Of a DNA stretch of 64,000 nucleotides, positions 6,065 to 64,000 are shown piece by piece. Source of the stretch: Candidatus Thiobius zoothamnicola (lineage in GTDB: Bacteria; Pseudomonadota; Gammaproteobacteria; Chromatiales; Chromatiaceae); assembly GCA_030826945.1 (NCBI GenBank), contig JAPQLC010000005.1, forward strand, positions 62,001 to 126,000. Direction: 5' to 3'. Positions within the stretch are counted from its first letter, which is position 1; every line of letters begins with the position of its first letter. The notes under the pieces are model-generated. The model did not search any database, was not told where the DNA came from, and saw only the letters and a list, made by a program, of their open reading frames with translations. A program made the position numbers and the translations under genes.

Positions 6065-6953
6065 GGTTTTTCATTTTCTTGGTCGCAAGATAAACAGCGA
6101 TAGTGGTCAGTAGCATACCGAAAATCTGCGTGGCGCTCAGTTGATCGTTGAACAGATAATAGGCTTCAATTGTCGTGATGGCGGGCACTAAATAGAACAG
6201 GCTGGCGACCTGGTGTGATTCATTGCGTTTGATCAAATACATCAGCAGCAGGATCGCGCCAATAGAGAGTCCTAAGGTCAACCAGGCCATGGCGAACAGG
6301 AATTGATGGGTGATCTGGATTGCGCCGGTTTCAAAATACCAGGCGCCGAATCCAAATAAGACCACCGCACTCATGTATTGCACGGCGGCGCCACTCACCA
6401 ATGGCGCTTTGGCACAGTATTTGTTTTGGTAAATTGCGCCGCTGGTGATGCTGAGTAGTGCTATACAGGCGGCGATCCATGCGTCTGGTGATTGACTGAC
6501 ATCATCAATTGACGGCAGCAGAATGATCGTGATGCCGATGACGCCCAGTAAAATACCCATCCAATTCAGTCTTGATACGGTGCGACCAAAAATCCAGGGC
6601 GTGACCGCCGTGGTGAGTAAGGGTTGTAAACCCACAAGCAGTGCGCATAACGCTGGCGACATACCCGTATCAATCGCGTAAAAAACGCCGCTCAGATAAC
6701 CGCCGTGGATGAGCAGTCCGGTTATCAGCAGGCCGAACCATTGGTGTTTTTCAGGCCACTTAAGCGAGAGTAAAGGAATGATCGGAATCAGTAAAATCAA
6801 GGATGCGAGAAAACGATAAAACAGCAGAGTAAAAGGTTCAGCGAAGGGCAGCGCATATTTCGCGCCAATAAAGCCAGTGCTCCATAGCAACACAAATAAA
6901 ATGGGCGCGACATGGCGCAGAGAAAGCTGGCTGAAGATTGGCGGTTTTTGCAT
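6057..6953 (-). CDS. DMT-superfamily (EamA/RhaT-like) transporter
   Basis: A 298-residue membrane protein with about ten hydrophobic segments arranged as two EamA repeats (roughly residues 15-145 and 160-290), ending in a basic KKMKNHA tail. The family exports or imports metabolites and drugs at the inner membrane. The N-terminal LFVLLWSTGFIGAKYALP and the later PLLTTAVTPWIFGRTVS are typical. Substrate cannot be inferred. It lies 17 bases after the sensor kinase gene and overlaps gmk by 8 bases, though this need not imply a functional link. Confidence 0.88.
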   Translation of the reverse strand: MQKPPIFSQLSLRHVAPILFVLLWSTGFIGAKYALPFAEPFTLLFYRFLASLILLIPIIPLLSLKWPEKHQWFGLLITGLLIHGGYLSGVFYAIDTGMSPALCALLVGLQPLLTTAVTPWIFGRTVSRLNWMGILLGVIGITIILLPSIDDVSQSPDAWIAACIALLSITSGAIYQNKYCAKAPLVSGAAVQYMSAVVLFGFGAWYFETGAIQITHQFLFAMAWLTLGLSIGAILLLMYLIKRNESHQVASLFYLVPAITTIEAYYLFNDQLSATQIFGMLLTTIAVYLATKKMKNHA

Positions 6954-6970
6954 TTAGATGGCGTCGCGTT

Positions 6971-9517
6971 TTAGCGGACGGTTGTTGAATCTGAAACCAA
7001 ATTGTTGCGTGAGGCGACGTAGGCATCGAGCGCTTGCAAAGTGGCTGGCCAGGCTGTTTGAAAGGCTTGCATGGCTTTGCGCGCGGTATCTGGCCATAAT
7101 GATGGGTCTATGTGCTGGCTTTGGTCCGCCAACGTTTGCATTTGAATCAGTCCCAGATAAGCGCTTGATCCTTTCAAGGCATGCGCGTGATGTGTGAAGT
7201 CCTGTAAATTATCTTCCGTTATGGCGAGCTGCATCCCAGTGAGCCGTTCACGCGTATCTTGCACATAAGAATTGTACAGATTGTCTTGGTACGCTTTTGA
7301 GGCATTCAAGTTAAATGCGGATTCAATCGCTTTTGTATCAACCAGCTTATTCTGGTTTTCAACTGGCGTTTTTTCGGATTGAGGGGAATGAGTTGGCGAG
7401 TGCGGCATGGCTTTACGCTCAAGCGTGTTGGCGATGCAATCAAAAAGCGCGGCTGACTTGATCGGCTTGGTCAGATAATGTTTGATGCCCACTTGCGCCA
7501 CCCGCTCCCGCGTTGTTTCATCAATGTTCGCGGTTAGCAGGATGAAAGGTGGGATGTCGTCAGGTGATGTTTCAGCCTGGTAAATTTGGAAAGCGTCAAT
7601 GCCGTCTATTTTCGGCATACATAAATCGGAGATGATTAAATCCCATTTTTGAGTTTTCAGTTGTTGCAGTAATTGTTCTCCATCACTGACGATGGTCGGA
7701 TGCAAACCGACGTTGTTGAGCATGGCTCTTAATACAGTTGCATTGGTTTCGTGGTCTTCGGCGACCAATATGGCGAGATTTTGGTATATCGGCTTGGAAT
7801 GATGCTGTTCAACCGCGTTATCCGTGTCGCTGTTTGATAAGGCGCTGCTGTGGATCGCATTAAAAAGGTGGACGTAATTGATCGGGTTTTGAGGGTTAAA
7901 CAGGTAATATCTTTCAAACTCATGAAATCGTTTTATCGTCGGCTTCTCGGCGATCTCAATCAAAGAAGCCGGTGAAGCATAGTCCATGTCGGTGAATTGG
8001 CGTAACAGCGCTTTTAATGCGTGCTGGTCGAATTGATCTGGATTGATCATCAAGGCACCATCAATGCGTTGGTCTTCCGTACGTTGTTCACGCAAAAATT
8101 GTGTCACTCTTGGCAAATCGCTTTCCAGCCGGTAAGAAAGGCCCCACTGTTCGAATCGCGTTTGCAGATTTGACCCAATTGGATTGGGGCTGAACACCAG
8201 CCAATAGGTGTCTGCAAGTTTATTGTTTTGTTGGTCCTGACCATCCAAGGTGAAAGGGAGATTAATTTTAAAGACCGATCCTTTATTCAAGGTGCTTTTA
8301 ACAGACAAAGTGCCTTCCATTTGGTCAATCAATCGTTTTGAGATGCTGACCCCTAGCCCGGTGCCACCATATTTTCTTGTCGTACTGACGTCACCTTGCG
8401 CGAATGGTTTGAAGATCCGGTCGATGGTTGCGCGATCCATCCCGATTCCAGTATCGGCAATCAGGAAAGAAACTTGTTGTCTTTGGCCATCATTTTTCCG
8501 GCATTGGATTTTTATATGAATATATCCACTTTCTGTGAATTTAATCGCATTGCCCAGGATATTGGTCAGGATTTGTCGAACCCGGTGTGGGTCACCAATG
8601 AGCTGATATTGCAGATTTAAATCGAAATGCACGATGAGAGAGAGGTTTTTTTTACGGGCCTCCAGCCGGAAAGATTCGACGCAACTGTTGACGATGTGGT
8701 GTAAATCAAAGGGTGCTTCTTCCAGCGTCAATCCATCGGATTCCAGTTTTGACGTATCCAAAATATCATTGATGGTTTTCAGCAGGTGCTGGCCGGAATC
8801 CAATATGCGCCCTGCGTAATTAGCCGCTTCTCTTTTTAGCTTTAGTGAAATCAGTAACTCGCTCAGTCCGATGATGGCGTTGAGCGGCGTACGTAATTCG
8901 TGAGTGACTTGGGCCAGAAATTCACTTTTCGCTTTATTCGCCTTTTCAGCGCGTTGTTTGGCTTTTTGCTCCCGGTAAAGTAAAACGGCGATGTAGGGAG
9001 GCAATATCACCAAGGAAATCAACATACTTATCCACATGGGAAAGTTTGTTTGCCAGAAAGAACTGAGCAAGTAGACGGCGATGAAACCGCACAAGGCCAG
9101 GATGGCGGAGCCGACCAGATAAGGGATGCCGAAACGGAAGCCATTGCCGAAAGCGACCCAGAGATAAATCGCGAACAAAGGAACGGCGATTTCCCCTGTG
9201 GTGATTAATGCCGCTGTGAGAAAGCCGTTGTCCATGAGCATGCCGGATATACGTCGATAGTGGACCCAAGGCTTTTGCAGGTTGATCAGGACGACGCTAT
9301 GCAAAAGTAACGATGACAAGCCATAGGCGATGGCCAGTTCAATGATTAAATCCATTTGCTGATCACCGCCAGCATCACCCGTGTAATTAAATATCAGGTA
9401 ATAACTGAACAAGAAAAAGGCCACCACCACCCTTATCATGCTTTGCTCAAATTCTGGACGGTTTGAGGCTTTTGCCTGTTGGTGGGAAAAGTTAAGACCG
9501 GATAGTAATTTTCTCAT
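6971..9517 (-). CDS. RpfC-like hybrid sensor histidine kinase with receiver and HPt domains
   Basis: An 848-residue hybrid kinase. Residues ~25-185 form five to seven membrane helices, followed by a short coiled coil and a DHp helix with HELRTPL (His206). The ATPase domain has GNAIKFTESG, DTGIGMD and GGTGLGVSISKRL. A receiver domain with phosphoacceptor Asp631 (SDLCMPKIDG) and a C-terminal HPt domain with His779 (HALKGSSAYLGL) follow. The N-terminal layout and the kinase-receiver-HPt order resemble RpfC, the DSF quorum-signal sensor of Xanthomonas. No rpfF synthase or rpfG partner is nearby, so the ligand is unknown. Between the kinase and REC domains (~450-580) is a degenerate receiver-like segment. 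Confidence 0.85.
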   Translation of the reverse strand: MRKLLSGLNFSHQQAKASNRPEFEQSMIRVVVAFFLFSYYLIFNYTGDAGGDQQMDLIIELAIAYGLSSLLLHSVVLINLQKPWVHYRRISGMLMDNGFLTAALITTGEIAVPLFAIYLWVAFGNGFRFGIPYLVGSAILALCGFIAVYLLSSFWQTNFPMWISMLISLVILPPYIAVLLYREQKAKQRAEKANKAKSEFLAQVTHELRTPLNAIIGLSELLISLKLKREAANYAGRILDSGQHLLKTINDILDTSKLESDGLTLEEAPFDLHHIVNSCVESFRLEARKKNLSLIVHFDLNLQYQLIGDPHRVRQILTNILGNAIKFTESGYIHIKIQCRKNDGQRQQVSFLIADTGIGMDRATIDRIFKPFAQGDVSTTRKYGGTGLGVSISKRLIDQMEGTLSVKSTLNKGSVFKINLPFTLDGQDQQNNKLADTYWLVFSPNPIGSNLQTRFEQWGLSYRLESDLPRVTQFLREQRTEDQRIDGALMINPDQFDQHALKALLRQFTDMDYASPASLIEIAEKPTIKRFHEFERYYLFNPQNPINYVHLFNAIHSSALSNSDTDNAVEQHHSKPIYQNLAILVAEDHETNATVLRAMLNNVGLHPTIVSDGEQLLQQLKTQKWDLIISDLCMPKIDGIDAFQIYQAETSPDDIPPFILLTANIDETTRERVAQVGIKHYLTKPIKSAALFDCIANTLERKAMPHSPTHSPQSEKTPVENQNKLVDTKAIESAFNLNASKAYQDNLYNSYVQDTRERLTGMQLAITEDNLQDFTHHAHALKGSSAYLGLIQMQTLADQSQHIDPSLWPDTARKAMQAFQTAWPATLQALDAYVASRNNLVSDSTTVR

Positions 9518-9592
9518 CCAGGAAAACCTTGCGGATAGTGATTTTTCGACAATGGAATAAAATTCAGGGCGTGTTGACTGGGGTATACCCCG

Positions 9593-10330
9593 TTATGAAA
9601 GCGGTTGTACAAGCAATTGTTTCATTTCCATCACCGCGCGTTCCAACCCAACGAAAAGCGCGCGAGCGATAATGGCATGCCCGATATTGAACTCCATGAT
9701 TGCTTCAATCGCCGCAACCGGTTTGACATTATGGTAATGCAGACCATGTCCGGCGTTGACTTGAAGACCCAGTTGATGACCATATTCGGCTGCGTGCTGA
9801 ATCCGTGCTAAAGCATTTGCTTTCAGAACCTGATTGCTGATGTCAGCATATCGTCCGGTATGAATTTCCACGACTGGCGCCTGGATCTCAGCAGCGGCTT
9901 CCAATTGCTGGTCTTCAGCATCAATAAACAGAGACACTCGTATCCCGGCTTCGGATAATGCCGCACAGTAATCCCGTAGGCGACTGATTTGATTGGCCGC
10001 ATCCAGACCACCCTCAGTGGTTAATTCCTGACGACGCTCTGGCACGAGACAGCAATCCGTGGGTTGAATTTCGCAAGCTATTTGCTGCATTTCCGGCGTG
10101 GCGGCCATTTCCAGATTCATGCGGGTTTGCAGGCACTCGGCCAGTAAGCGCACGTCACGATCCTGAATATGCCGTCGATCTTCACGTAAGTGTAAAGTAA
10201 TGAGGTCGGCACCCGCCTGTTCAGCGATTAACGCCGCTTGGATGACTTCAGGATAGCGTGTGCCGCGTGCTTGACGAATGGTTGCAATATGATCAATGTT
10301 GACGCCCAACAGGCGAGAGCTGGTTCTCAT
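9593..10330 (-). CDS. pdxJ: Pyridoxine 5'-phosphate synthase
   Basis: A 245-residue TIM-barrel enzyme starting [18 protein letters not shown] after a short leader. It has the substrate-binding [15 protein letters not shown] segment and the closing [12 protein letters not shown] segment. PdxJ condenses 1-deoxyxylulose 5-phosphate with 3-amino-1-hydroxyacetone 1-phosphate in the DXP-dependent vitamin B6 pathway. Length and motifs are normal. Unusually, it is not next to recO, era or acpS, its common neighbours in this class. It diverges from the FAD oxidoreductase gene. Confidence 0.97.
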
Positions 10331-47609: not shown

Positions 47610-48272
47610 GTGCAAGCTTTCAACAAAGGTTTTTTGATCATTGTGACAAGTCTGCTATTGACCAGTTCGGTCCAGGCATTCTCATTCAGTATGAGTGATC
47701 ATCATCACCCACGCTGGCATGGATATCCGTATTGGGCGTCGCCTTATTGGGCGGGACCCGGTTATGCGCCCTGGCATATGCCGCCACGGTTATCAGGATA
47801 TGACCGCTTGCGCATGAAACATCGTCGCCAGAGACAAATGGACAATCATGAAGATGCGATGGAGAGCCTCAACGATATGTTGTTTGGCGGGTTTGGTTTT
47901 GACCGGGAAAAGGCCATTAAACTAGCACGCAAAATTCAGTCCTCATCAGGCGCAGCGCTTTCCGGCAACTTCCATCGTGGTTCAATTGCGACATCCGGCT
48001 CACGCGCGGCACCTTCCATTTGGGGAAATGAAGAATCCTTTAAGGCCAACGCAAAAGTCTTGCAGGAAACTGCCAAAGCTTTGGCGCTGGAGTTGGCGAA
48101 ACGTCCTACGGCTGAAGAAGGCGCGGTTTTCCTGAAAACCGGGGCACCCTATAAAGCCCCGAAAGACCGTAAGGATGAACCTGTCTCACCTGCCGTATGG
48201 GAAAAATTCAATGATCTGTCGGACGCATGTTTCGCCTGCCATATGCGATTCCGTGGGTATGAATGGGACTGA
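47610..48272 (+). CDS. Exported class II c-type cytochrome with aromatic-rich N-terminal segment
   Basis: A 220-residue protein with a GTG start and AGGAGA upstream. After the signal peptide comes a His/Trp/Tyr/Pro-rich stretch (residues 30-60, e.g. WHGYPYWASPYWAGPGYAPW), then a four-helix part. The single haem motif CFACH lies ten residues from the C-terminus, the hallmark of class II cytochromes (c' or c556). WGNEESFKANAKVLQETAKAL matches the family helices. The aromatic leader is unusual and recalls sulfur globule proteins. Role: periplasmic electron carrier or NO/CO binding, not decidable here. Confidence 0.75.
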   Translation: MQAFNKGFLIIVTSLLLTSSVQAFSFSMSDHHHPRWHGYPYWASPYWAGPGYAPWHMPPRLSGYDRLRMKHRRQRQMDNHEDAMESLNDMLFGGFGFDREKAIKLARKIQSSSGAALSGNFHRGSIATSGSRAAPSIWGNEESFKANAKVLQETAKALALELAKRPTAEEGAVFLKTGAPYKAPKDRKDEPVSPAVWEKFNDLSDACFACHMRFRGYEWD

Positions 48273-48349: not shown

Positions 48350-48700
48350 TCAGGCCCCGCTGATATGACGAATAGATTGAATAAATTCAGCATCTTTATC
48401 CAATCTGAAACATTTCAAAAGGTCAGGATCAATATCCTGTTGAGTTTGTAAAACGGGAGCGTATTCCTTAACCTTTAAAGAAACTTCCCGGTATTTTTCT
48501 GCTGAATAAGTCCCCATCTCAACAATCCCGCCAGAAATCGATCGGATATCATTTAGATCGTAATCTTTCTTTTTGAAATACCAAAAAAAGCAATTTGCTT
48601 TGGCAAATTCCAATAATTCATTGGCTGGTGGCTGTATGTTCTGATGCGGGCTGGAGCAACCCAGCGTTAACGCAATCAGGCACCATAGCATGCTCCTCAT
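48350..48700 (-). CDS. Tai4-like immunity lipoprotein
   Basis: A 116-residue protein beginning MRSMLWCLIALTLGCSS, a lipoprotein-type signal with LTLGC. The helical mature part (CFFWYFKKKDYDLNDIRS, YREVSLKVKEYAP) fits the Tai4 immunity family, which blocks Tae4 amidases in the periplasm. Its start overlaps the tae4 stop by four bases, the normal effector-immunity order. The family match alone is moderate; the context makes it convincing. Confidence 0.75.
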   Translation of the reverse strand: MRSMLWCLIALTLGCSSPHQNIQPPANELLEFAKANCFFWYFKKKDYDLNDIRSISGGIVEMGTYSAEKYREVSLKVKEYAPVLQTQQDIDPDLLKCFRLDKDAEFIQSIRHISGA

Positions 48701-49188
48701 TTTGAAGCCTCCCAAAACAACACTCTATTGGCTTGTCCGCCATAGTCTTGGTATAAGCATTTTCCACCATCCCAAAGATCGGCATGCCCCGTTGCATTTG
48801 ACCATCCTGATACTTCAAAGACAATGATTCCCTTTCGTCCGGCCAATTGAGCTTTGTAATTCGATGGCAAATATCGCTCTGGCCCACCATACTTGGCGGT
48901 TAAGTGCCGCACCAGCATCTTGACGCGGAAAATATACCATTGCTGATGTCTTCCAGATGAAACCTGGGCTTCATGCTTTCCATTAGGGCCAATAGCTTTA
49001 AAAAATGGTATTGAATGAGCGCCCCCCACGCCATTCAGCGCTTTTGAAACCCGTGTGGCACACGCATTCTTAAACACACCCATATCATAATTTAGCCCGA
49101 CTTTACCGCCTATGTCGGTGAATACGGTGCCTGCATCCACATTCGGATAATGCGTTTTTAAGGCATCCCAACTCGGTAATTGGTCCAT
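48697..49188 (-). CDS. Tae4-family type VI secretion amidase effector
   Basis: A 163-residue protein starting MDQLPSWDALKTHYPN. Catalytic Cys43 lies in FKNACATRVSKALNG and His135 in SNATGHADLWDG, with Asp148 as a candidate third residue; this is the NlpC/P60-like Tae4 layout. Tae4 cleaves the D-Glu-mDAP bond of peptidoglycan cross-links in rival cells after injection. No signal peptide, as expected. A TTG at 49212 could add eight residues. No T6SS structural genes are in the window. Confidence 0.87.
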   Translation of the reverse strand: MDQLPSWDALKTHYPNVDAGTVFTDIGGKVGLNYDMGVFKNACATRVSKALNGVGGAHSIPFFKAIGPNGKHEAQVSSGRHQQWYIFRVKMLVRHLTAKYGGPERYLPSNYKAQLAGRKGIIVFEVSGWSNATGHADLWDGGKCLYQDYGGQANRVLFWEASK

Positions 49189-49273
49189 ACTCCCCCCATA
49201 AAATTTGTTCAACGGCTATTGCACTGCCAGGAGAATCCCAATTATCAACTCATTGAATAAGCTTACAAGCCTA

Positions 49274-52595: not shown

Positions 52596-53891
52596 CTAGC
52601 TCACATGAAACGTATCCTGAACGAAATTGTTATACCAGCTATAAGCATATTCAACATCTAAAAGCCGTTCTTCCTCGCTGGCATTACTCCGTGAAAGACC
52701 ACCAGCACCGGGGACTGGCGTAATGCGTTGCCCATCTTCGGAAAGGGTATACACCGCCATTACGGAAATCGCGTAGCCGGAACCAACCACGCTATAGCAG
52801 GCATTGCTAAAGGAAGGATCACCCGCTTCAATGCCTTTGAAAGCCGCACTCATCGCCACCGCACAATTCTTTGCTTCCGAATTCGCCGCAAAACCGGATT
52901 TGGGCAAGGCCGTTGCGGTACAAGCGTCGCCCAACACATAGATACCAGCGTGCCGGGTGGATTCAAATGTACGACGATCCACCGGACACCAACCACTTTC
53001 ATCGACCAAGTCAGCTTGGTGCGCAATCCAATTCGCTTTTTGCGGTGGAATCAGGTTAATCACATCAGCATGAAACCGCTCACCATCGTTGGTGACGACT
53101 TCACGATCAGACACATTCACTTCGGCAACTTGATACTCAGAACCGGATATCCACTCAATCATGGAATTATCGGTATCAAAACCATACAGATCACGCCAAG
53201 CTTGCATAAACAAACTCTGCTTGGCGAAACTGGCTTTCGGATCCAAGATTTGAATCTTGGCATTTGGCTTGTATTGCTTGAAGTAATGCGCAATCTGACT
53301 GGCGCGTTCATAAGGTGCTGGCGGACAGCGAAAAGGATTAGGCGGAGCTGCCAGCACAAACACGCCGCCATCCGGCATGGCTTCAAGTTGGGCGCGCAAA
53401 GTCAGCGTTTGTCCACCCGCTTTCCATGCGTGAGGAATTCGTTCCGCCACATTCGCATCATAACCTTCGATCTCGTCGTAACGGAAATCGATGCCCGGTG
53501 ATACGATGCAACGATTATAGTGATATGTTTGACCGGATTGCGTAATAACTGATTTCGCCGCCGGATCAATATTAACCACCCGATCCTGAATTACCTGGAT
53601 ACCCAATCCGGCCAAACCTTGGTAATCCACGCGTAATGAGTCCAATTGACGATCACCACCCAAGACTTCGTTACTCATAAAGCAAGTGTAATATTGGGGA
53701 TTCTCTTCAATTAATGAGATCTGCGCGGAAGGTTCCAACTTTTTCAGATATTTGGCGAAAGTCGCGCCGCCGACGCCACCACCGACCACCACCACTGATT
53801 CGCCTGCGCCGTGCGATATCATCGGAAACCCGAAGCTACCAGCGGCAGCGACTCCCAAACCGACTTTTTTCAGAAAATTTCGTCGTTTCAT
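52596..53891 (-). CDS. fccB: Flavocytochrome c sulfide dehydrogenase, flavoprotein subunit
   Basis: A 431-residue protein with a Tat signal (MKRRNFLKKVGLGVAAAGSF). FAD binding starts at SVVVVGGGVGGATFAKYL. The covalent flavin attachment Cys70 lies in YYTCFMSNEVLGGDR, and Cys189 (FRCPPAPYERAS) and Cys365 (NACYSVVGSGYAIS) match the redox pair Cys161/Cys337 of mature Allochromatium FccB after a 28-residue shift. It oxidises sulfide and passes electrons to a diheme cytochrome. No separate fccA is next to it; an FccA-like domain is found in the giant protein two genes upstream. Its start is five bases after the DUF1501 stop. Confidence 0.95.
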   Translation of the reverse strand: MKRRNFLKKVGLGVAAAGSFGFPMISHGAGESVVVVGGGVGGATFAKYLKKLEPSAQISLIEENPQYYTCFMSNEVLGGDRQLDSLRVDYQGLAGLGIQVIQDRVVNIDPAAKSVITQSGQTYHYNRCIVSPGIDFRYDEIEGYDANVAERIPHAWKAGGQTLTLRAQLEAMPDGGVFVLAAPPNPFRCPPAPYERASQIAHYFKQYKPNAKIQILDPKASFAKQSLFMQAWRDLYGFDTDNSMIEWISGSEYQVAEVNVSDREVVTNDGERFHADVINLIPPQKANWIAHQADLVDESGWCPVDRRTFESTRHAGIYVLGDACTATALPKSGFAANSEAKNCAVAMSAAFKGIEAGDPSFSNACYSVVGSGYAISVMAVYTLSEDGQRITPVPGAGGLSRSNASEEERLLDVEYAYSWYNNFVQDTFHVS

Positions 53892-53895
53892 GAAC

Positions 53896-55203
53896 CTATA
53901 CCTCTATGCCGGTTTGCACCGTAGAGCTGAAAATTGCAGTCTCGGGAGTATTAGCGAAATAACGCAAAGCAAATGGATGTTGGTCAATACCCAACATTTT
54001 ACATACCTCGCTACAGACAATCTTAGGGATAAGACGTATACCGTTATCACTGACTGCCAAAGTTTGAGGGTCAATACTCAACTTTTCATGTTGAGGCCCT
54101 GTTGCGCCGACGATGCGGTTAGTCCAGTCCACATTTTTCGCCATAAAAATGTCTGAACCTGCAGACCAGTGATCCTTACCATTATTCGCGTTATAACGCG
54201 GTGTACGACCCACATCGGAAGTGATATGCAGAACGATACGATCAGCCAAACCTAATGCCTCAGCTTTAACCCACAAATAATCCACTGCACGGGTAAGACG
54301 AGGAAGCGCAGTGCCATGACGTTGATCATGATCATTATGCGTGTCAAAACCACCAATCGAGAAACTGCCAGTCACCGTGGTGCCAGCCAAGGCCATCACC
54401 AAGAACAGATGGAGTTGCCGCACCAGACGATTATCATCTCCTTTTAAATCCTGACTATCCAATTCATCCGGCATCACATCTGATAAGAGGCCCAACTGAT
54501 CAGATGACGTACGCGCCATATATAAGGTATCCAGATTATTTTGCATACGCGGCATATTATTCGCCTGCGCCCGCTGAGCCTCTAGCCGACGTAAACGATA
54601 AGCCATCACTTTTTCTATGTCAGCAGGTTTATGAAAATGCCCACCCGTGGCATTCCGGTTTGGGTTAGCTAAGGCCCGCAACAAATTCTCATCAGGCAAA
54701 TCAGTAAAAGGCAAAATACCGACCGTATCGGAAAATCCACCGCCTCTCACCAAAGGCATCGACATATTTTGACCATGAATACCAGCATACAATTCATTCA
54801 AGCTTGGCGAGCCGCCATTCATCAAGGAACCTGTACTGCGGTTCCGGTCAGCCGCCGCATGACCGTTGGATTGAATGTCTATGCCATTCACCACCAACAT
54901 ATTTTCATGATATTTCATGAAAAACTCGGCATTTTCAGCGAATGGCGCAAAACGTAAATGACCTGCCGTCCCGGCAGGGGCCGTTTCAGCCCAATGATTG
55001 ATAGAGGCGTTCTCACGGGGATCGCAAAAAGAACTCTGATCCCAGCCTCCACCAGCATGGATAGTCATCAGGATGGGACCATTGAACCGGTTATCCGCAG
55101 CAGATACGTTACGGAACATGACTGGCATGGAGCCGACTAAACCAGCACCAGCCAATTGTTTTAAAAAATCACGTCTTTTCATCATTCTGGCGCTACTCAT
55201 AGA
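53896..55203 (-). CDS. Tat-exported DUF1501 protein
   Basis: A 435-residue protein with a Tat signal (MMKRRDFLKQLAGAGLVGS). The DUF1501 pattern, an alkaline-phosphatase-like fold without assigned substrate, is seen in PILMTIHAGGGWDQSSFCDP, MLVVNGIDIQSNGHAAADR and SIGGFDTHNDHDQRHG; HITSDVGRTPRYNANNGKDHW is the typical C-terminal motif. In many bacteria DUF1501 genes follow cytochrome-containing DUF1549/DUF1800 partners; here the partner is the giant multidomain gene, whose stop it overlaps. The start is at 55203 (ATGAGTAG overlap) or 55185. Confidence 0.85.
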   Translation of the reverse strand, partial: SMSSARMMKRRDFLKQLAGAGLVGSMPVMFRNVSAADNRFNGPILMTIHAGGGWDQSSFCDPRENASINHWAETAPAGTAGHLRFAPFAENAEFFMKYHENMLVVNGIDIQSNGHAAADRNRSTGSLMNGGSPSLNELYAGIHGQNMSMPLVRGGGFSDTVGILPFTDLPDENLLRALANPNRNATGGHFHKPADIEKVMAYRLRRLEAQRAQANNMPRMQNNLDTLYMARTSSDQLGLLSDVMPDELDSQDLKGDDNRLVRQLHLFLVMALAGTTVTGSFSIGGFDTHNDHDQRHGTALPRLTRAVDYLWVKAEALGLADRIVLHITSDVGRTPRYNANNGKDHWSAGSDIFMAKNVDWTNRIVGATGPQHEKLSIDPQTLAVSDNGIRLIPKIVCSEVCKMLGIDQHPFALRYFANTPETAIFSSTVQTGIEV

Positions 55204-58200
55204 GGAAACGGACATCACTTAATAAGTAAACCATCACAGCCGCCCAGGCCCGCTTGGTATAAAGCGGATCCTCAGTGTTGTTGTTCAAATTGCATGACAA
55301 ACCCGTCACGACATTCTCACGGTCATTCCACACTTCACGGAACAAGTCATAAGAGCGATCAATCTCAGGATCATTTTGATCTAATGACTCACCCAATAAA
55401 TGTTGATGCAGGTATTGCAGGTTCTGGCGAATACGCTGTTCTCCATGCATCACCCATTGATCGGACGAAGCCAACACCGCCAAGACAGTATCATCCACAT
55501 AGGCATCATTGTTGACGCCGGATAAGCGTTGCCCCGTCATCACAAAACGGATCCTGCGGGTTTGCGCCGGAATTGCCATGTAGCTGTTCACTCCACGCCA
55601 ACTAGAGCCGTTATGAGTCAACGGATGCGAATTGCTTATCACACCTCCAGCAGCATTCAGGAATACCAAATGAATGGCAACGCGGTCATTATCACGACTC
55701 CAAGGACGGAGATTCGCACCAAAGAAAGCTTGGGCATCACCAGAATCAATCGCCTCCGTATGCTGGCTGACATCCACTTCTTGATAAGCAATGGCTTCTT
55801 CAGTCTGTTGATTGCAGATTCCGCCTACTGAGAAGTAATAATCCCCAGCCGCAGAACCTGGACCGCGACACCCGCCATTCGCATGACCCAGATAATCATT
55901 ACTCCATTCGCGCACCATGCCACGTTCAATATTCCAACCCAACATGCCTTGCTCAGCACCAGGATTCACCAGTAAGTTATGCATATCCTGCAAATTATCA
56001 TTCACCAATGGTGTATCCGCTGCAGCGACTTTGGGGAACAACAAACGCTGATCAGAATTGCGCCGGAAGTCATTCCTCACCATATTGCATGACAACTCCA
56101 TGAATATCCGATCTGGAATAGCATTCATCAAACTGTTCATTTCCCTGTTCGGTTTGGTGTGCAGAACGCCCCCATCAAAACCACCATAGAACACACCCAT
56201 GGATGAATTCCATACGCGGCCCGAATCAAAATCACGCCATGAAGCACCAGTCAGCGCATTTAATTTGTGGTTAAGTTCTTCTGGCGTCAATAACCGATGG
56301 ATGCCCCAATCCGCATATCTTGCATTTGCATCAGTACCCAAACCCTGATTATTCGCAACACGGAATAACGGATTGACGACAAATTCAACTAACAGGTCTT
56401 TGACATTGTATGAACCACGACCATTGTTTTGAATAAAGTCCCCAGTGATTGAATCAAACAGCGCATCCTGTTCATTAAAAGCCATTAATGCGGCGGCATA
56501 TCCAGGCTCATCAGGATTCAGCGGAGATTCCAAAGGCTTGCGTTTAAACAAGGCTTTGTACCAGAAATGCACCGCTCCTTTAGCGAAACGTGGATCTTGC
56601 GCCAATTCACCCGCTAACCATTGCAAGTTATCCCTTACGCCAGAATCCGATGACGGATTCGGCAATATCAGCTTAACCGTCGCGCCATCAACATAGGCAT
56701 CCAACTGACCCCGACCACTACGCTGCCCGCGCAGATAAAAACGCAGCGTCGTCGCATTCGCCGGCACATCAACCGTTTCACGGTTGAATCGCCAATCCGG
56801 TTTGCGATGAGTCAAACGTTTGGTTTCAGCAATCATTGCGCCATTCGTATCCATGAAAGCAATATAAACAAACGGGCGATCACGCCATGCAACGGCATTA
56901 CGCATGAAGGCACCATACTCAACCTGCACCTGATTTTGCGCAATTTCAGCTTGATAAGGGGTCAGATCAACCTCTTGATACACTGAAGAAACACGCGTAT
57001 CGCACCCCCCCACCATAAAGAAGTGGTCGCCGATATGAGACTCAGGTACTAATTCCGCATCACAAGCTTGTTCAGGTAAAGCGCGCAGCTCACCCTCAAC
57101 TATGGCCCAACCTTCAGTACCTGATTCAGCACCAGAATTGGCCAACAAATTATCGGTAATGCGCGTGGCGTCACTACTCAGACCACGATGACCGCCCGGC
57201 GCGATTTTGTCTCCATAGCCAGGTGAAAACATGTCACGGTACCAACGATCACCCGTTTGATACCACGGATAACCTGCATGATCCGGTGGATAATCATTAC
57301 CTTTATAAGCGGCATCCAAAGCATCCTGATCGCCGCTCTCACCATTATGATTTTGCTGGTAACGGTTATTGTCACCCCAGTTCATGAAACCGCCAGCCAT
57401 GGGATCCATGCCTTGATGGCATGACGTGCAATTCGGATTTTCCATGGTTGGCACATGAAAGTTCCCGTTCGCGCTATCATCCAACGGACGTTGGCCCAAA
57501 GCTTCAATATCCTGCCCCAGAAACTGCATATGCACCTGATTAACGCGATGACGGTTACGATTAGTGTCCGTTGTCGGGAAGCGTGACAACCAAGCTGTCG
57601 TGCTCAATACGCCTGCATGGGGGTAAGCTTTTTCAGGGAAACGCGCAGAAACGCTCGGCATGCGCGCCGGACGCATCTCATAGGGATTGTCTTCGGTGAA
57701 ATCACTCTCAATCAGTTCCGCGCCAGTCACTTGCGCCATCACCGGGTTGACCATGGCGTAATCCGCCGTGACGATCTCGCGCCAGTCCCGATCATGGCTG
57801 ACGATATAATCCAACAAAGCTACCGGTTGGTGACGCACGGCCCAGCTCAGATCACGACGATCAGCATTGGAAAGCTCGGTGATCGCAGGAAAATCCCGTT
57901 CACTGAAACCTTCATTCCGGTCAACTCCACGCGCGCCTTTCGACAGGAAGGTTTCATATCCAGCGCGATGGACGAAATCCTGTAATGCATCACCATCCAT
58001 CATTTGGCGTAACGTGTCTCTGAGCGTTTCCTCAGAATCCACTGAACCAACTTCTTGTTCAGTCGGCATACGACCTAATAAGATCAACGAAGCCTTGCGC
58101 AAGGTCTGTTGCTCATCAAGCAATTGCATCGCATCGGAAACAATATTCTGACGCGCCAATTCCACCGACAAACCCTCTGAAACCTCAGAGCGGTTGCCCG

Positions 58201-61200
58201 CATGATCCACCGCAACAATTTCATAATGGTAAATACCAAGCGCCAAACCCAGATCGGTGAAGGTATTCCACTCGGTGGAACCGATCAATTCACCATTGCG
58301 ATAAATTTCATAGTAGGCCACGCCCCAATCATCATCGCCATCCATCCAGGTCAACGTAATGCCGTCTTCCAAAGTGGCCGCCAGTTCTGGTGACTCCGGC
58401 GTCTCTGGAGTTTGCAAATCAGTGCCTTGACCGGCGTAGAACTCGGCCAAAGCAGCCAATGCCTGATCACCTGAAGCTTGATGCAGCGTATCTAATGCGT
58501 TTTGCATTAATGTCGGAGCAATGCCACCCCGGTGTACGTAATCCTTCAAAGTCGCTGCAAGATAAGGTTTCCACTGCCCCGCCAGATAGACCCCGGCGGT
58601 GCTCAGGCTACGCCCCTGATTCTGATGGCAACCTGCACAGTATTGATTGTGCAGTTCCTCACCTTCAGACGCCAAACTCACATCCACAGCCTGTTCGACG
58701 CCTTGATAAGGTAAGGCGGCGAAATGTTCAGCCATTAGTCCAAATTGCTCGTCGCTATAGCCTCTGGCCACCCGTCCCATGATAGTGGAATAACGTACTC
58801 CATCTCGATAATCACGCATGGTTTTGGCGAAATAAGCCGCCTCCATACCGGCAATACTCGGCATTGCCGGACCGGCACTATCGCCATCCGGACCGTGGCA
58901 GCTGTAGCAATTCATTACCAAGGCGTCAGTGGATAAATCATTGCCCGGTGACACCTCACCGCAACTCGCCGGATCATTCAGGCGACGGAAAAACGCATCC
59001 AAGGCCTGATAACCCGCTGAATCGGCATCCACAAAGGGCGCGCCGCCGCCATGATTTACTACACCAATGCTCTTATCCAGTACGACTTGGTCACCCAAAA
59101 GCGCAGCGATATTCTGCAAAGCCACCATATTACGTTCTGACGCATTAGGCCCACTGGTCAAAATAAAGCGGGTATTTTGCGCTCCGCCAGCAGCCGAATG
59201 ACAACTTGAGCACTGTTGCAACTCAGGCTCCAAAGATACCCTGAAATATTGCTGATCCGCGCTGCATACATCATTAAGTATCGCTTCAGCGGCGTTTGAC
59301 TCGTCAGACAAGTTACCCCGCGCATCCTGCGCACGTACGGTATACACATAATTATTGCCGGACTCCACACTATGATCGATGAATTCCGTCAACAAAGCAG
59401 TGGCTAACAGACGACCATCACGCAACACCCGGTATCCCGCCACGCCGACATTGTCGGACGCGGCTGACCAAGTCAACCTGACGCTCTGATCGCCTTGTCT
59501 TTCCACTTGCAAATTGTCCGGTGAAGTCGGCGCAATACCGTCGCCGGTCTGCACGCTTAACTCAGCACCTGCACCCGAACGATTACCCGCCTGATCAACC
59601 GCAACAATCTGGTAATGATAAGTCTGGTTATCCGCCAGCCCCCGATCTTCATAGCGTGTAACGTTGACCGTATCGATTTCAACACCATCACGCAAAATCA
59701 CATAATGCGCAAGTTGCAGATTATCTTGAGAGGGTTCCCAGGTCAGCACCACATGATCAGTCCCAACCTGATCAGCCTCAGGCGTCGACGGTGTATCCGG
59801 GGCGATATTATCCTTGCTCAACACAGTGATTGAGTGACTTGGAAGCGACGCGTTGCCAGCCGTGTCCCGGGCCACTACCGCATAGTTATATTGGGTGGCG
59901 ACATCAATTCCCGTATCTCGATAGGCGCTATCGGTCACTTCAACAAGCAATTGACCATTACGCATCACTTGATAAATGCTCACCGCCACATTATCGCTGG
60001 CTGGACGCCAAGCGAGTTGAACGGCGTCATTCATCACTTGAGCATTCAGGTCAGCAGGACTGGATGGCGCCTCAGCATCTGGAATCACCGCTTCAACAGC
60101 CGACGAATCAGATGCCGTGCCATCAGGCCAGACCGTACGCACCTGATACTGGTAAGCCCCCAACACAATCACTTGTTGATCAATAAACGCCGGCGAAACG
60201 ACTTCAGCAATTCGCTCTCCGTTGCGATAAATATGGTATCCAGACGCATGCTTATCCTGCTTCCACGCTAAACTGACATGCGATTGGGAAACTTCCTTAA
60301 CCGTTAAGTCTTGCGGCGCGTCAGGCTTGCCAACAATTAATGGACGCCTGATCAATCTGGCTTCCGCATTACCCGTCCATTCGTAATACTCCATTTTCAA
60401 ACGATGAACGCCCGATAAAAACCGATCAACACGATAACTTTTCGCTTCCTGGCGCTTCCATTCATCAATGATTAAATCGCCATCCAACCACACGCGGCCA
60501 CCATCATCCGAACGTTCAATCAACCTATAGACGCCCGGTTCAAAATGTATGTCTCCCTGCCAACGTACGGAAAACTTGTCGGCTGGCAAACCGACCGGTC
60601 GTCCGGTACTACCCCAATTAAATTGGATGTCTGACTCTAAACGTACATCAGCAGGCTCACCTGCCAATGATGGGTTAGCGAAATATTCTGCGCAAAACGT
60701 ATTGTCGGGAATCTGAGAGCGGCAATCCGTGACTGCCCCCCAATCAAATTGGATTTCCGCATCGCCCCAGGCTTCAAAGTACTCTATATGAATATGATGA
60801 GCACCTACCGGCAGCCGTCGGACAGCACGATATTCAGTCGGGTTTGAATGATGTCTCCATTGATCTAAAACAAGTTCACCATCAATCCACACCCGCACGC
60901 CGCCATCGGTGACCACCCGGAAACGGTGCAAACCTTCATCAAATTCAAAATTTCCGGCCCAGCGAGCAGAGAAATTATTGCCCGGCACACTCAAAGATGG
61001 GCTACCTTGCGCCCAATCAAAATCAATGGCCTGATCGTAACGAACATCAACCGGGTCACCATCAAGCCCTTTATTAGCGTAATATTGAGCACAGAACTGG
61101 CCACTAGGCGTGACGGAACAATCTGGCACAAGCTCCCAATTCAGGCTTGCCTTCGCCTCACCCCAATTCTCAACATGTTCCACCCTGATAACCCGTTCGC

Positions 61201-64000
61201 CAGCGCTCATTGGAACCAACTGCTGATGCTTCCCTTTATTAGACCAAGTATATTTAGTGTCAATCACTAAATTATCATCCACGAAAATGCGCATGCTATC
61301 GTCCATTCCCAGATCAAAACGATAGACGCCTTCCTCAAAGTCAAACCGCCCTTGGTAAAGCGTGGAAAACTGATCCTTCTTCACTCCCTCACTCGGTGAA
61401 CTTTTGCCAACTTCCATAGCAATTGCATCCATCATCACCATGTCAGCCGGATCACCTTGCAGCTCCATATTATTGAAATAAGAAACGCAGAACTGATCTT
61501 TCGGAATATCCGAGCAATCCGCCGATTTCTCCCAATGCAAAGCGGCTTTGGCATTACCCCAGTGCTCAGCGTATTTCACCTCAAGCAGATGACGTCCTGC
61601 TTGTATCGGGTGTAACTTGAAATAATCACCATAATGCGGCTCCGCTTTGGAAAAGCTGAATAAAGGTTCGCCATTCAAACGCACCTCCATCTCATCATCA
61701 ACTTCCGCAATGAAGCGATACATGCCAGACTCAAAATTCACATAGCCTTTCCAATCAGCTTCAAACCGATCTTGCCTGACCACGCCTGGCACTGGACTTT
61801 GATTACCCCAATCAAACTTGATGGTTGGCGTTTGTGCTATAGCGACAGGAGCCAATTCGCCATTATCAGTATTGGCATAAGAGACGCAAAAACGCCCATC
61901 CTCAATCTGGTCACAAGCCGATTCAGAACGCCACATCAAATCAACATTAGCTGGCCCACCCGCCTCAAAATACTCGACCTTGATGCGATGGGTTCCGGCT
62001 GGCAAATTGACGATCGCGTGATACTCCGCTTTCTTGTATTTCCAGCGATCAATAATTAACTGGTCATCCACCCATACCCGAATGCCATCATCAGCACGGG
62101 CGATAAATTCGTATCCCCCAGCCGCAAATTCAAAATCACCTAACCAACGTACAGAGAATTTATCGCGCCAGATCGCGTCGGTCGGTTGCTCGTTGTTCCA
62201 ATCAAAATCGATAACGGGCGTATTGGCTAAATCCTTCGGGTCACCATCCAAATCCCTGTTAGGGAAATATTCACCGCAGAAGCTGCCCGTCGGCACCGTA
62301 TTACAGTCTGGGATCACCTCCCACCAGAATTTAGCCTTGGCTTCCCCCCAGACCTCCTGATACTCAACCTGCACTAAATGCTCGCCCGCTTCGATATAGC
62401 GCGCCTGACGATAACGTCCGCCCCAGGGCCATTGGCGCTTCCAATTATCCAGAATCAACTGACCACCGACCCAAACACGCATACCGTCATCACTATCGGC
62501 ATGAAAACGGTAATAGCCACCGGTAAATTCGTGCATTCCCTGCCAACGTGCCGAGAACTTGTTAACGGGCATATTCTCACTTGGCCCGCCAGCACCCCAA
62601 GTATGATTAATACTGGTTTCCTGCCGTGCAAATACAGGATCACCTGCTAAGTTTGGGTTGGCGTAATAATCCGCGCAAAATGCATCATTTGGCAGGTCGG
62701 CGCTATCACAAGCCGATAAATGCCGCTCCAGCAAGAGCCAATCAAAATCGAACTGGCCGTCAACCCCCAACGCATATTCCACCTCAATCAAGTACTGGCC
62801 GGTTTGATTAACGAGCTTTTGCACACTGGTCTGATTCGGCGTTCCATCACCAACATATAAAGGCGCATTATCAAAACGGATATCGACTTGACCTGAACCA
62901 TGCACAATATTGAACTCCGTTAATCCCCGCTCAAAATTGGCATTAAAACGCCACTTCATGGCCAAATCCTGAAGATTGATCCCTTCAGGCAGTGCATTGG
63001 CATCAAATTGAAAACCGGTCTGACCATCCATATCCACTAATTGAGCGAATCCAACCAATTCCTCATCAGACCACAGTTCCACGCAGGAAGCACCATGATC
63101 AGCCACGCAAGCCAGACGGGTTACGCTCATCGCCACAGCCGCATCAAGACTCACATCCTGATACGCCAACGCAATATCATGCGAACCTCCCGATAAAACT
63201 CGCTCAACGCTCTCCTGGCGTGCATCCGATTCACCTTGCCAACGCTCAAAAACGATTTCGCCATCAATACTTAAACGGACACGATCATCGGCATGAATGT
63301 TGAATCGGTAAAGACCAGCCGGCAAAGCCAATTTGCTTTGCCAGTGCGTGATAAATTCATCCGATCCCACGCCAGCACCTGGACCACCATCCCGCCAGTT
63401 TTCATCCAACAGTGTTTCCGCACTGCCTTGATGAACTAATACCGGTAAATCGCCCTGCTCTGTCAAGGCGGGTTGATCTGGATAACCATCCTGAGAAAAA
63501 CGGGCGACGCAATATTCACCCGCTGAAAGTTCCGGACAAGCCAGAGCCACCAAAGCATCCTGAGTCACCCAAACCCCAGCGTCACTGGTCTGGACTTCGC
63601 TTGCCGTCCCCGGCAAAGTCAAGGTAATGTCCCGATTAACAAAAGTCGCGGGAGAATATGCAGCAATGCGCTCAATCACTGACTCGCCTTCCCGCAAGTC
63701 CGGGGTATAACGCCATACGCGACCTGACGCCGCATCAGCCACAGACAGTAAATAGTCTCGCCCTTCACACGCCAAATTATCGAAAGCCGGTGCATAATCA
63801 GCAACCAATTGACTTTCAGCATCTGATTGCGCCATCGCAATACGCTGCGCCTCCTCCTCCGTCGATCCTCCGTTGAGAAATACCAATCGTCCTACGCTGG
63901 TCAGATTGAAGTGTCGAATAAGCTCTGCGGATTCACGCTCGGAAAATAACCAATGTACTGGTGCATCACGACCCAACTGACGCGTCTGGTTCGTCCTTTC
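55193..64000 (-). CDS. Giant exported multidomain protein: PA14 array, Fn3, FccA-like diheme domain, DUF1549/DUF1588-like C-terminus (5' partial)
   Basis: At least 2,935 residues; the frame is open to the window edge and the true start is outside. Residues are counted from the codon at 63974-63976. About eight PA14-like units span ~147-1214, each opening with a Cys-containing FCxxYxxN-type motif and holding an FSxRWxG strand and DDGxRVW loop. Four Fn3 repeats span ~1217-1572. A CSSCH haem site is at 1589, and an FccA-like domain with CYSCH (1690) and CAGCH (1780) at ~1672-1850. Fn3 number five is at ~1860-1940. The C-terminal part has LLGRMPTEQEV (DUF1549-like), a CTSCHQGMDPMAGG haem site at 2183 (DUF1588-like) and two NLLxNxGAE-type modules (~2273-2438, ~2665-2838). 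Four haems imply export and processing by the Ccm system. Its stop overlaps the DUF1501 gene. Confidence 0.88.
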   Translation of the reverse strand, partial: ERTNQTRQLGRDAPVHWLFSERESAELIRHFNLTSVGRLVFLNGGSTEEEAQRIAMAQSDAESQLVADYAPAFDNLACEGRDYLLSVADAASGRVWRYTPDLREGESVIERIAAYSPATFVNRDITLTLPGTASEVQTSDAGVWVTQDALVALACPELSAGEYCVARFSQDGYPDQPALTEQGDLPVLVHQGSAETLLDENWRDGGPGAGVGSDEFITHWQSKLALPAGLYRFNIHADDRVRLSIDGEIVFERWQGESDARQESVERVLSGGSHDIALAYQDVSLDAAVAMSVTRLACVADHGASCVELWSDEELVGFAQLVDMDGQTGFQFDANALPEGINLQDLAMKWRFNANFERGLTEFNIVHGSGQVDIRFDNAPLYVGDGTPNQTSVQKLVNQTGQYLIEVEYALGVDGQFDFDWLLLERHLSACDSADLPNDAFCADYYANPNLAGDPVFARQETSINHTWGAGGPSENMPVNKFSARWQGMHEFTGGYYRFHADSDDGMRVWVGGQLILDNWKRQWPWGGRYRQARYIEAGEHLVQVEYQEVWGEAKAKFWWEVIPDCNTVPTGSFCGEYFPNRDLDGDPKDLANTPVIDFDWNNEQPTDAIWRDKFSVRWLGDFEFAAGGYEFIARADDGIRVWVDDQLIIDRWKYKKAEYHAIVNLPAGTHRIKVEYFEAGGPANVDLMWRSESACDQIEDGRFCVSYANTDNGELAPVAIAQTPTIKFDWGNQSPVPGVVRQDRFEADWKGYVNFESGMYRFIAEVDDEMEVRLNGEPLFSFSKAEPHYGDYFKLHPIQAGRHLLEVKYAEHWGNAKAALHWEKSADCSDIPKDQFCVSYFNNMELQGDPADMVMMDAIAMEVGKSSPSEGVKKDQFSTLYQGRFDFEEGVYRFDLGMDDSMRIFVDDNLVIDTKYTWSNKGKHQQLVPMSAGERVIRVEHVENWGEAKASLNWELVPDCSVTPSGQFCAQYYANKGLDGDPVDVRYDQAIDFDWAQGSPSLSVPGNNFSARWAGNFEFDEGLHRFRVVTDGGVRVWIDGELVLDQWRHHSNPTEYRAVRRLPVGAHHIHIEYFEAWGDAEIQFDWGAVTDCRSQIPDNTFCAEYFANPSLAGEPADVRLESDIQFNWGSTGRPVGLPADKFSVRWQGDIHFEPGVYRLIERSDDGGRVWLDGDLIIDEWKRQEAKSYRVDRFLSGVHRLKMEYYEWTGNAEARLIRRPLIVGKPDAPQDLTVKEVSQSHVSLAWKQDKHASGYHIYRNGERIAEVVSPAFIDQQVIVLGAYQYQVRTVWPDGTASDSSAVEAVIPDAEAPSSPADLNAQVMNDAVQLAWRPASDNVAVSIYQVMRNGQLLVEVTDSAYRDTGIDVATQYNYAVVARDTAGNASLPSHSITVLSKDNIAPDTPSTPEADQVGTDHVVLTWEPSQDNLQLAHYVILRDGVEIDTVNVTRYEDRGLADNQTYHYQIVAVDQAGNRSGAGAELSVQTGDGIAPTSPDNLQVERQGDQSVRLTWSAASDNVGVAGYRVLRDGRLLATALLTEFIDHSVESGNNYVYTVRAQDARGNLSDESNAAEAILNDVCSADQQYFRVSLEPELQQCSSCHSAAGGAQNTRFILTSGPNASERNMVALQNIAALLGDQVVLDKSIGVVNHGGGAPFVDADSAGYQALDAFFRRLNDPASCGEVSPGNDLSTDALVMNCYSCHGPDGDSAGPAMPSIAGMEAAYFAKTMRDYRDGVRYSTIMGRVARGYSDEQFGLMAEHFAALPYQGVEQAVDVSLASEGEELHNQYCAGCHQNQGRSLSTAGVYLAGQWKPYLAATLKDYVHRGGIAPTLMQNALDTLHQASGDQALAALAEFYAGQGTDLQTPETPESPELAATLEDGITLTWMDGDDDWGVAYYEIYRNGELIGSTEWNTFTDLGLALGIYHYEIVAVDHAGNRSEVSEGLSVELARQNIVSDAMQLLDEQQTLRKASLILLGRMPTEQEVGSVDSEETLRDTLRQMMDGDALQDFVHRAGYETFLSKGARGVDRNEGFSERDFPAITELSNADRRDLSWAVRHQPVALLDYIVSHDRDWREIVTADYAMVNPVMAQVTGAELIESDFTEDNPYEMRPARMPSVSARFPEKAYPHAGVLSTTAWLSRFPTTDTNRNRHRVNQVHMQFLGQDIEALGQRPLDDSANGNFHVPTMENPNCTSCHQGMDPMAGGFMNWGDNNRYQQNHNGESGDQDALDAAYKGNDYPPDHAGYPWYQTGDRWYRDMFSPGYGDKIAPGGHRGLSSDATRITDNLLANSGAESGTEGWAIVEGELRALPEQACDAELVPESHIGDHFFMVGGCDTRVSSVYQEVDLTPYQAEIAQNQVQVEYGAFMRNAVAWRDRPFVYIAFMDTNGAMIAETKRLTHRKPDWRFNRETVDVPANATTLRFYLRGQRSGRGQLDAYVDGATVKLILPNPSSDSGVRDNLQWLAGELAQDPRFAKGAVHFWYKALFKRKPLESPLNPDEPGYAAALMAFNEQDALFDSITGDFIQNNGRGSYNVKDLLVEFVVNPLFRVANNQGLGTDANARYADWGIHRLLTPEELNHKLNALTGASWRDFDSGRVWNSSMGVFYGGFDGGVLHTKPNREMNSLMNAIPDRIFMELSCNMVRNDFRRNSDQRLLFPKVAAADTPLVNDNLQDMHNLLVNPGAEQGMLGWNIERGMVREWSNDYLGHANGGCRGPGSAAGDYYFSVGGICNQQTEEAIAYQEVDVSQHTEAIDSGDAQAFFGANLRPWSRDNDRVAIHLVFLNAAGGVISNSHPLTHNGSSWRGVNSYMAIPAQTRRIRFVMTGQRLSGVNNDAYVDDTVLAVLASSDQWVMHGEQRIRQNLQYLHQHLLGESLDQNDPEIDRSYDLFREVWNDRENVVTGLSCNLNNNTEDPLYTKRAWAAVMVYLLSDVRFLYE
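58157..58399 (-). other. Fifth Fn3 domain of the giant protein
   Basis: This segment encodes an Fn3-like fold (ITLTWMDGDDDWGVAYYEIYR, YHYEIVAVDHAGN) between the diheme domain and the C-terminal DUF1549-like part. The YxIYRNGxxI and VDxAGN motifs match the four Fn3 units before the haem domains, so the haem block appears to have been inserted into an Fn3 series. Confidence 0.7.
58427..58963 (-). other. FccA-like diheme cytochrome domain inside the giant protein
   Basis: About 179 residues with two CxxCH sites 90 residues apart. Segments match the diheme subunit of Allochromatium flavocytochrome c closely: SAGPAMPSIAGM, YSTIMGRVARGYSDEQF, MAEHFAALPYQ, LHNQYCAGCH and LAGQWKPYLAATLKDY. The Met in TIMGR is the likely sixth ligand of the first haem. 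The same operon encodes FccB. Confidence 0.85.
59261..60328 (-). repeat. Four tandem Fn3 repeats of the giant protein
   Basis: Four units of about 88 codons share (A)PxxPxxLxxxxxxxxxVxLxWxxxxDNxxxxxYxVxRxGxxL and YxYxVxAxDxAGNxS patterns. Such repeats are common spacers in extracellular enzymes. Confidence 0.85.
60335..63538 (-). repeat. Array of about eight PA14-like repeats of the giant protein
   Basis: Units of about 130 codons share an opening DxxFCxxYxxNxxLxGxP, a middle FSxRWxGxxxFxxGxYRF, the loop DDGxRVWxDxxLIIDxW and an end HxxxVEYxExxGxAxxxxxW followed by a Cys. Cysteines at both ends of each unit suggest disulfide closure. The two units nearest the N-terminus are most divergent. 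PA14 folds typically bind carbohydrate. Confidence 0.82.

Follow-up and report, generated by a model that had tools for sequence, protein, structure and literature searches.

The operon at the right-hand end of the analysed DNA from Candidatus Thiobius zoothamnicola probably encodes a scaffold-borne flavocytochrome c sulfide dehydrogenase (FCSD), in which an FccAB pair would have been captured by a glycan-binding PSD/PSCyt system. FCSD is a textbook soluble periplasmic enzyme, and classical flavocytochrome c operons encode a small separate diheme FccA beside FccB. Here, the diheme FccA is a domain of a giant protein, FccB is encoded by a separate gene at the other end of the operon, and a DUF1501 gene lies between them. 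Hereinafter, the window is the whole 64,000-nucleotide stretch that was analysed (positions 62001-126000 of contig C21), and the window genome is the 2.38 Mb genome to which it belongs.

Architecture of the window operon

The three genes lie on the minus strand in the order giant, DUF1501, FccB. The giant and DUF1501 genes overlap by 26 bases, and a 4-base gap separates DUF1501 from FccB, in keeping with the overlaps or four-base gap described in an earlier note on this DNA. The giant gene occupies 55193..64000 (-) and runs off the window edge. The same note gave the protein at least 2,935 residues, and reading past the edge into the contig yields a full length of 3,211 aa, with an ATG at contig position 126828, 828 bases past the window end. 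The N-terminus encoded outside the window, MVNFLHRLGVYTFLGVFLLSLSQGAFAG, resembles a Sec signal.

The domains anticipated in the giant were largely recovered by Pfam, with seven PA14, several fn3, Cytochrom_C and Cytochrome_CBB3 above the cut-offs and DUF1592 and DUF1588 below them. Specifically, the seven PA14 stretches span 60389..63481 (-), and the fn3 repeats ahead of the cytochrome part span 59285..60331 (-), both with approximate bounds. The first of four CxxCH motifs (residue 1873; 59198..59212 (-)) lies about 101 residues ahead of the first diheme heme, as it does in all relatives. The embedded diheme FccA domain (residues 1964-2135; 58424..58939 (-)) contains CxxCH motifs at residues 1974 and 2064 with conserved axial Met, and aligns end to end with FccA of solved structures (3VRD_A, 5e-39; 1FCD_C, 3e-36). 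The fourth CxxCH (residue 2467; 57416..57430 (-)) is within a DUF1588/PSCyt3-like segment of the divergent, DUF1592/DUF1588-like C-terminal core (residues 2236-3211; 55196..58123 (-)).

FccB (52596..53891 (-), 431 aa) carries the Tat motif RRNFL and the Pfam domains FCSD_central and FCSD-flav_bind. Its match to 3VRD_B has an E-value of 8e-145, and Cys42, Cys161 and Cys337 have their counterparts in C70, C189 and C365, so that its description as an intact-looking FccB stands. On the path from flavin to heme, Tyr306 is replaced by Phe334 and Thr336 by Ala364, while Trp391 is retained. The DUF1501 protein (53896..55218 (-)) is assigned to that family by Pfam, carries a Tat motif (MKRRDFLKQLAG) and has a predicted fold of the sulfatase/alkaline-phosphatase superfamily.

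Several other genes lie near the operon. A type VI secretion amidase effector of the Tae4 family (Pfam, 4.8e-21) is encoded at 48697-49212 (-) of the window and is followed by a small lipoprotein-like ORF at 48350-48715 (-), which has no Pfam match and could be an immunity protein. The gene at 47610-48272 (+) encodes a member of the cytochrome c' family (Pfam, 2.7e-14), the N-terminal part of which is rich in His. Upstream of the giant (L005 5101-6205) are two successive small ORFs for membrane-anchored, Met-rich, coiled-coil-like proteins of no clear family.

The gene order is conserved in Thiotrichaceae

The order giant with embedded FccA, DUF1501 or DUF1552, FccB is found in 24 of 24 complete loci, which come from 15 genomes, and the three genes are co-directional and nearly contiguous. 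The genomes are the window genome, in which the operon occurs twice, and genomes of Thiotrichaceae, including Thiothrix. The layout recorded from the window is thus not a one-off. The loci are of two types. In the PA14 type (10 loci) the middle gene encodes DUF1501, and giants wholly inside their locus measure 2,785-3,696 aa. In the CBM2 type (14 loci) the middle gene encodes DUF1552; the start of one of these giants (L082) is lost at a contig end. Overall, the giants of diheme-bearing operons span 1,254-3,696 aa. Had an unrelated FccB merely come to lie beside a giant with cytochrome domains, by chance or through misassembly, the same three genes would not be expected in 24 loci that include the isolates T. 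caldifontis DSM 21228 and T. fructosivorans ATCC 49748; we regard this explanation as refuted, with hardly any probability left to it.

Embedded full-length dihemes in long ORFs are rare outside Thiotrichaceae. A survey of 55 relatives and of 369 genomes from the class found them only in the window genome (G000) and in one genome of another family (G107), and a sample of 398 genomes of the phylum yielded no additional one. The family of G107 is Thiotrichaceae (63 genomes), in which they are common; its genus g309 corresponds to Thiothrix and the hosts include Thiothrix sp. UBA5583 besides the two isolates. Every PA14-type giant whose sequence is complete to the C-terminus has four CxxCH motifs, with a near-constant spacing of about 101, 90 and 404 residues. 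Complete giants begin with Sec-like N-termini, as judged by eye, except for L067, the called start of which is uncertain, and the FccBs share the motif RRxF[LI]. Comparison of sequences confirms a conserved system in which the heme half resides in a giant, predicted exported sugar-binding protein and the flavin half is encoded separately in the same operon.

The earlier note knew of no described system with this layout. Likewise, we found no account of an embedded FccA in the open-access literature on combinations of these DUF families with FCSD. Genomic studies of Thiothrix list 'fccAB' for the genus and do not mention the giant architecture (PMC7767063, PMC10532065, PMC9455678), and the fccAB genes of other sulfur oxidisers, when compared, were reported to have no conserved neighbours (PMC6382920).

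The PA14-type operon of T. fructosivorans (L087 / L067) is located on plasmid pTfr446, and the system may be mobile; a plasmid search returned distant partial matches only. In one Thiothrix genome (G448, L068), the two giant operons are divergent, at 5883-9977 (-) and from 10252 onward (+), with about 275 bases between them.

FccB accompanies the embedded diheme

Relatives of the giant C-terminus that lack the diheme form two-gene pairs with DUF1501 in Burkholderiales/Rubrivivax, Myxococcales/Polyangia, Oleiphilaceae, Thalassolituus and others. We inspected 25 such DUF1501-type loci, each with at least 2 kb of downstream sequence and with one duplicate record removed, and found neither FccB nor FccA there. 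Of the 210 genomes in the family to which the window belongs, just one besides the window genome, G006, probably that of the Solemya velum gill symbiont, encodes a relative of the giant C-terminus. The symbiont giant (L090 7051-12805), which has an F5/8 type C domain in its C-terminal region, is a pseudogene with an in-frame stop, and its diheme middle has been lost with a change of frame. Diheme remnants persist at this locus, and the DUF1501 and FccB genes are open. FccB therefore tracks the diheme, because it is absent from the diheme-less pairs and present where the diheme is, or was, embedded. The co-occurrence is a strong association and not a series of many independent events, because the diheme-bearing loci form one clade.

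Two of the diheme-less DUF1592/1588-DUF1501 pairs (L047 and L049) adjoin a conserved secreted protein that is predicted, by eye, to be beta-barrel-like. L047 also contains an ORF for an ApbE-like flavin transferase, again identified by eye.

Phylogenetic trees separate the two kinds of FccAB on both subunits. Embedded and canonical sequences lie on opposite sides of a 100/100 branch in the diheme tree (25 embedded, 40 canonical) as well as in the FccB tree (24 embedded-type, 37 canonical), where the canonical sequences were drawn from the window's family, from Thiotrichaceae and from a few further families and not from all FCSD. All embedded dihemes group together, while neither the PA14 type nor the CBM2 type is monophyletic in either tree. 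A history in which each scaffold type captured FccAB independently was considered, and the pattern fits equally a single capture with later scaffold exchange, two captures from closely related sources, or limited resolution.

Other candidate partners of FccB

FccB is encoded at four places in the window genome. In addition to the window operon on C21, contig C39 (L008) carries a second giant-type operon, in which a 1,254-aa giant is followed by DUF1552 and FccB. This giant contains three CBM2 domains, the diheme, fn3, a further cytochrome and a clear PSD3/PSD5/PSD4/PSCyt3/PSD2 tail. Contig C18 (L006 4624-6150) carries a broken fccAB, with an upstream FccA remnant that consists of the C-terminal part only and an FccB split over two frames. 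Contig C31 (L007) carries an ordinary stand-alone fccA-fccB pair. A search of the window genome for PF09098 (Dehyd-heme_bind) gave zero matches and was uninformative.

The claim that the embedded domain is the only FccA-like sequence consequently holds for the window operon but fails for the genome, which has the pair on C31. It had also been proposed that a separate fccA encoded with another fccB would argue against a partnership between FccB and the giant. Such a pair exists on C31, but it leaves the partnership unbroken because it sits in a different FccA/FccB clade.

The C31 pair raises the alternative that the window-operon FccB works with a free cytochrome (a stand-alone FccA, a monoheme FccA-like protein or a soluble cytochrome c), the embedded diheme being a mere internal relay for the PSD/DUF1501 system. 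The same is suggested by Thiothrix (G446-G461), which encodes several further, more distant FccB-like flavoproteins, some of them beside monoheme-type cytochromes, and by substitutions on the flavin-heme path of FccB (see below). However, nine giant-bearing Thiothrix genomes (G446, G447, G448, G452, G454, G456, G457, G460 and G461) gave no full-length diheme FccA outside the giants in a search at E up to 1e-8, while G449 and G453 have one each. Moreover, FccB joins the PSD/DUF1501 system only where a diheme is or was embedded, and its clade parallels that of the embedded dihemes and not canonical FccA. A free cytochrome as the partner is, in our judgement, unlikely. Although the C31 pair counts against it, a partnership of FccB with the embedded diheme on a PA14/Fn3 scaffold, as the earlier note proposed, is strongly supported by comparison, namely by the conserved order, the co-occurrence, the matching clades and the nine Thiothrix genomes.

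Catalytic residues and the path from flavin to heme

The redox centres are conserved throughout. The heme-binding Cys and His of both CxxCH motifs and both axial Met are conserved in all embedded dihemes, and the FAD-linking Cys42 and the redox pair Cys161/Cys337 are conserved in 24/24 embedded-type FccBs.

Residues Tyr306, Thr336 and Trp391 (A. vinosum numbering) have been placed between FAD and the interface of the subunits (PMC12010331; numbering taken with an apparent swap of two numbers in its text corrected for). Trp391 is kept in embedded-type FccB. Tyr306 is replaced by Phe in 23 of the 24 embedded-type sequences (Tyr in 35/37 canonical ones), and Thr336 by Gly or Ala, likewise in 23/24 (Thr in 37/37). 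Positions that distinguish the two groups cluster around these residues, with 6 of 18 within 5 residues of them (p 0.002 against random placement, a post hoc value that ignores shared ancestry). The substitutions and their clustering suggest that the flavin-heme path or the substrate pocket has been retuned, so that electron transfer or substrate may not be the same as in FCSD. Mainly for this reason we do not call the system plain FCSD. A dead enzyme was considered in view of the two substitutions and rejected, as the catalytic cysteines and heme ligands are all invariant.

Changes specific to the lineage are concentrated near Cys337 and along the flavin path, and it is conceivable that FccB and the giant are a genuine pair that no longer oxidises sulfide. 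The pair would instead oxidise or reduce something else, such as a thiol or sulfur group that the sulfatase-like DUF1501 protein would free from a sulfated or thiolated polymer. The model of DUF1501 (pLDDT 78.9) does match sulfatases and alkaline phosphatases (E 3e-6), with TM of only 0.25-0.4, and the predicted likeness is at most at the superfamily level. Furthermore, PSCyt/PSD proteins with carbohydrate-binding modules (CBMs) have been noted beside sulfatase genes in Verrucomicrobia (PMC5615132). On the other hand, the two redox-active cysteines and the one that links FAD do not vary, and the diheme-type hosts that carry a name either oxidise sulfur or are related to bacteria that do. A change of substrate to this extent therefore seems improbable to us, and the redox modules of the giant-FccB system are, on sequence grounds, best accounted for as working like FCSD.

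Scaffold and export

The two giant types have homologous C-terminal cores, with an hhalign probability of 97.6% (4e-12) between the window giant profile and the PSD/PSCyt3 region of the second giant, including its PSD4/PSCyt3 core. When recent paralogy of DUF1501 and DUF1552 was considered, their profiles matched weakly and only across the first quarter from the N-terminus, a stretch that contains the Tat signal.

The AlphaFold model of the window giant C-terminus (mean pLDDT 78.5) predicts two inserted beta-sandwich domains, at 56654..57151 (-) and 55463..55981 (-). Its jelly-roll domains resemble CBM16-like single-domain folds in Foldseek (TM by target 0.73-0.78), an approximate assignment; top matches to long multidomain proteins had TM of about 0.1 and were discarded. 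Together with the PA14 domains, the CBM2 domains of the second giant with their conserved Trps and the F5/8 type C domain of the Solemya symbiont, these predicted folds point to glycan binding.

Each of the 10 genomes checked has a T2SS secretin, and export of the folded complex via T2SS is possible; presence of the secretin alone does not show export. Sec-like signals, putative glycan-binding domains and the secretin are consistent, and only consistent, with an extracellular or polysaccharide-bound location. A search for literature on the sheath polysaccharide of Thiothrix gave nothing usable.

Proposed mechanism and relation to known systems

The system combines features of two known ones. 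It shares with FccAB of Allochromatium vinosum (1FCD) and Thermochromatium tepidum (3VRD) the FccB fold with Cys42/161/337, a full-length homologous diheme with both CxxCH and both axial Met, and the location of the genes in one operon. In those enzymes, FccA is a separate subunit of about 20 kDa, whereas here it is part of a giant, a DUF1501 or DUF1552 gene intervenes, FccB carries the Tyr306 and Thr336 substitutions, and the sequences fall in separate clades. Monoheme FCSD (5N1T) likewise has a homologous FccB (2e-120), but its cytochrome is a stand-alone single-heme protein and not a diheme inside a giant. With PSCyt/PSD (DUF1592/DUF1588) systems that include DUF1501 or DUF1552, the operon shares the C-terminal core and the neighbouring gene, and in Verrucomicrobia glycan-binding modules such as PA14 are fused to PSCyt proteins (PMC5615132); the 25 compared relatives differ in having neither FccA diheme nor FccB. 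We therefore regard the operon as encoding a new FCSD variant, because FccA is not a small separate protein and two residues of the interface path differ.

We propose that a two-gene PSD/PSCyt system, composed of a multidomain cytochrome with carbohydrate-binding domains and a Tat-exported DUF1501 or DUF1552 protein, captured an ancestral pair of FccA and FccB. FccA would have become a domain of the giant, and FccB would have stayed a separate gene at the operon end. The giant would be exported by Sec and receive its hemes in the periplasm, while FccB (with FAD) and DUF1501 would be exported folded by Tat. FccB would then dock in trans on the embedded diheme. It would oxidise sulfide or a related sulfane-sulfur compound at the FAD/Cys161/Cys337 site and pass electrons to the diheme, from which they would reach the two other hemes of the giant or a soluble cytochrome c. 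PA14, CBM2 and CBM16-like domains would tether the complex to polysaccharide, for example of a sheath, capsule or matrix.

A more far-reaching version is doubtful, though worth stating: Thiothrix and its relatives may carry out part of their sulfide oxidation extracellularly, on a tetraheme giant that is anchored to polysaccharide and holds FccB via its FccA domain, with the hemes relaying electrons cellward and the process coupled to sulfatase-like DUF1501/DUF1552.

The cytochrome subunit of FCSD has thus become a domain of giant, predicted exported glycan-binding proteins, and in nine Thiothrix genomes this domain is the sole full-length diheme FccA found. With the extra FccB-like proteins, the diversity of sulfide dehydrogenases in Thiothrix exceeds what 'fccAB' suggests. 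For the widespread, uncharacterised PSCyt/PSD-DUF1501/DUF1552 systems, the operon offers a concrete candidate redox partner and hence a testable function. Sulfide oxidation may possibly be anchored to a sheath or matrix; if so, this would be an immobilised extracellular sulfide dehydrogenase.
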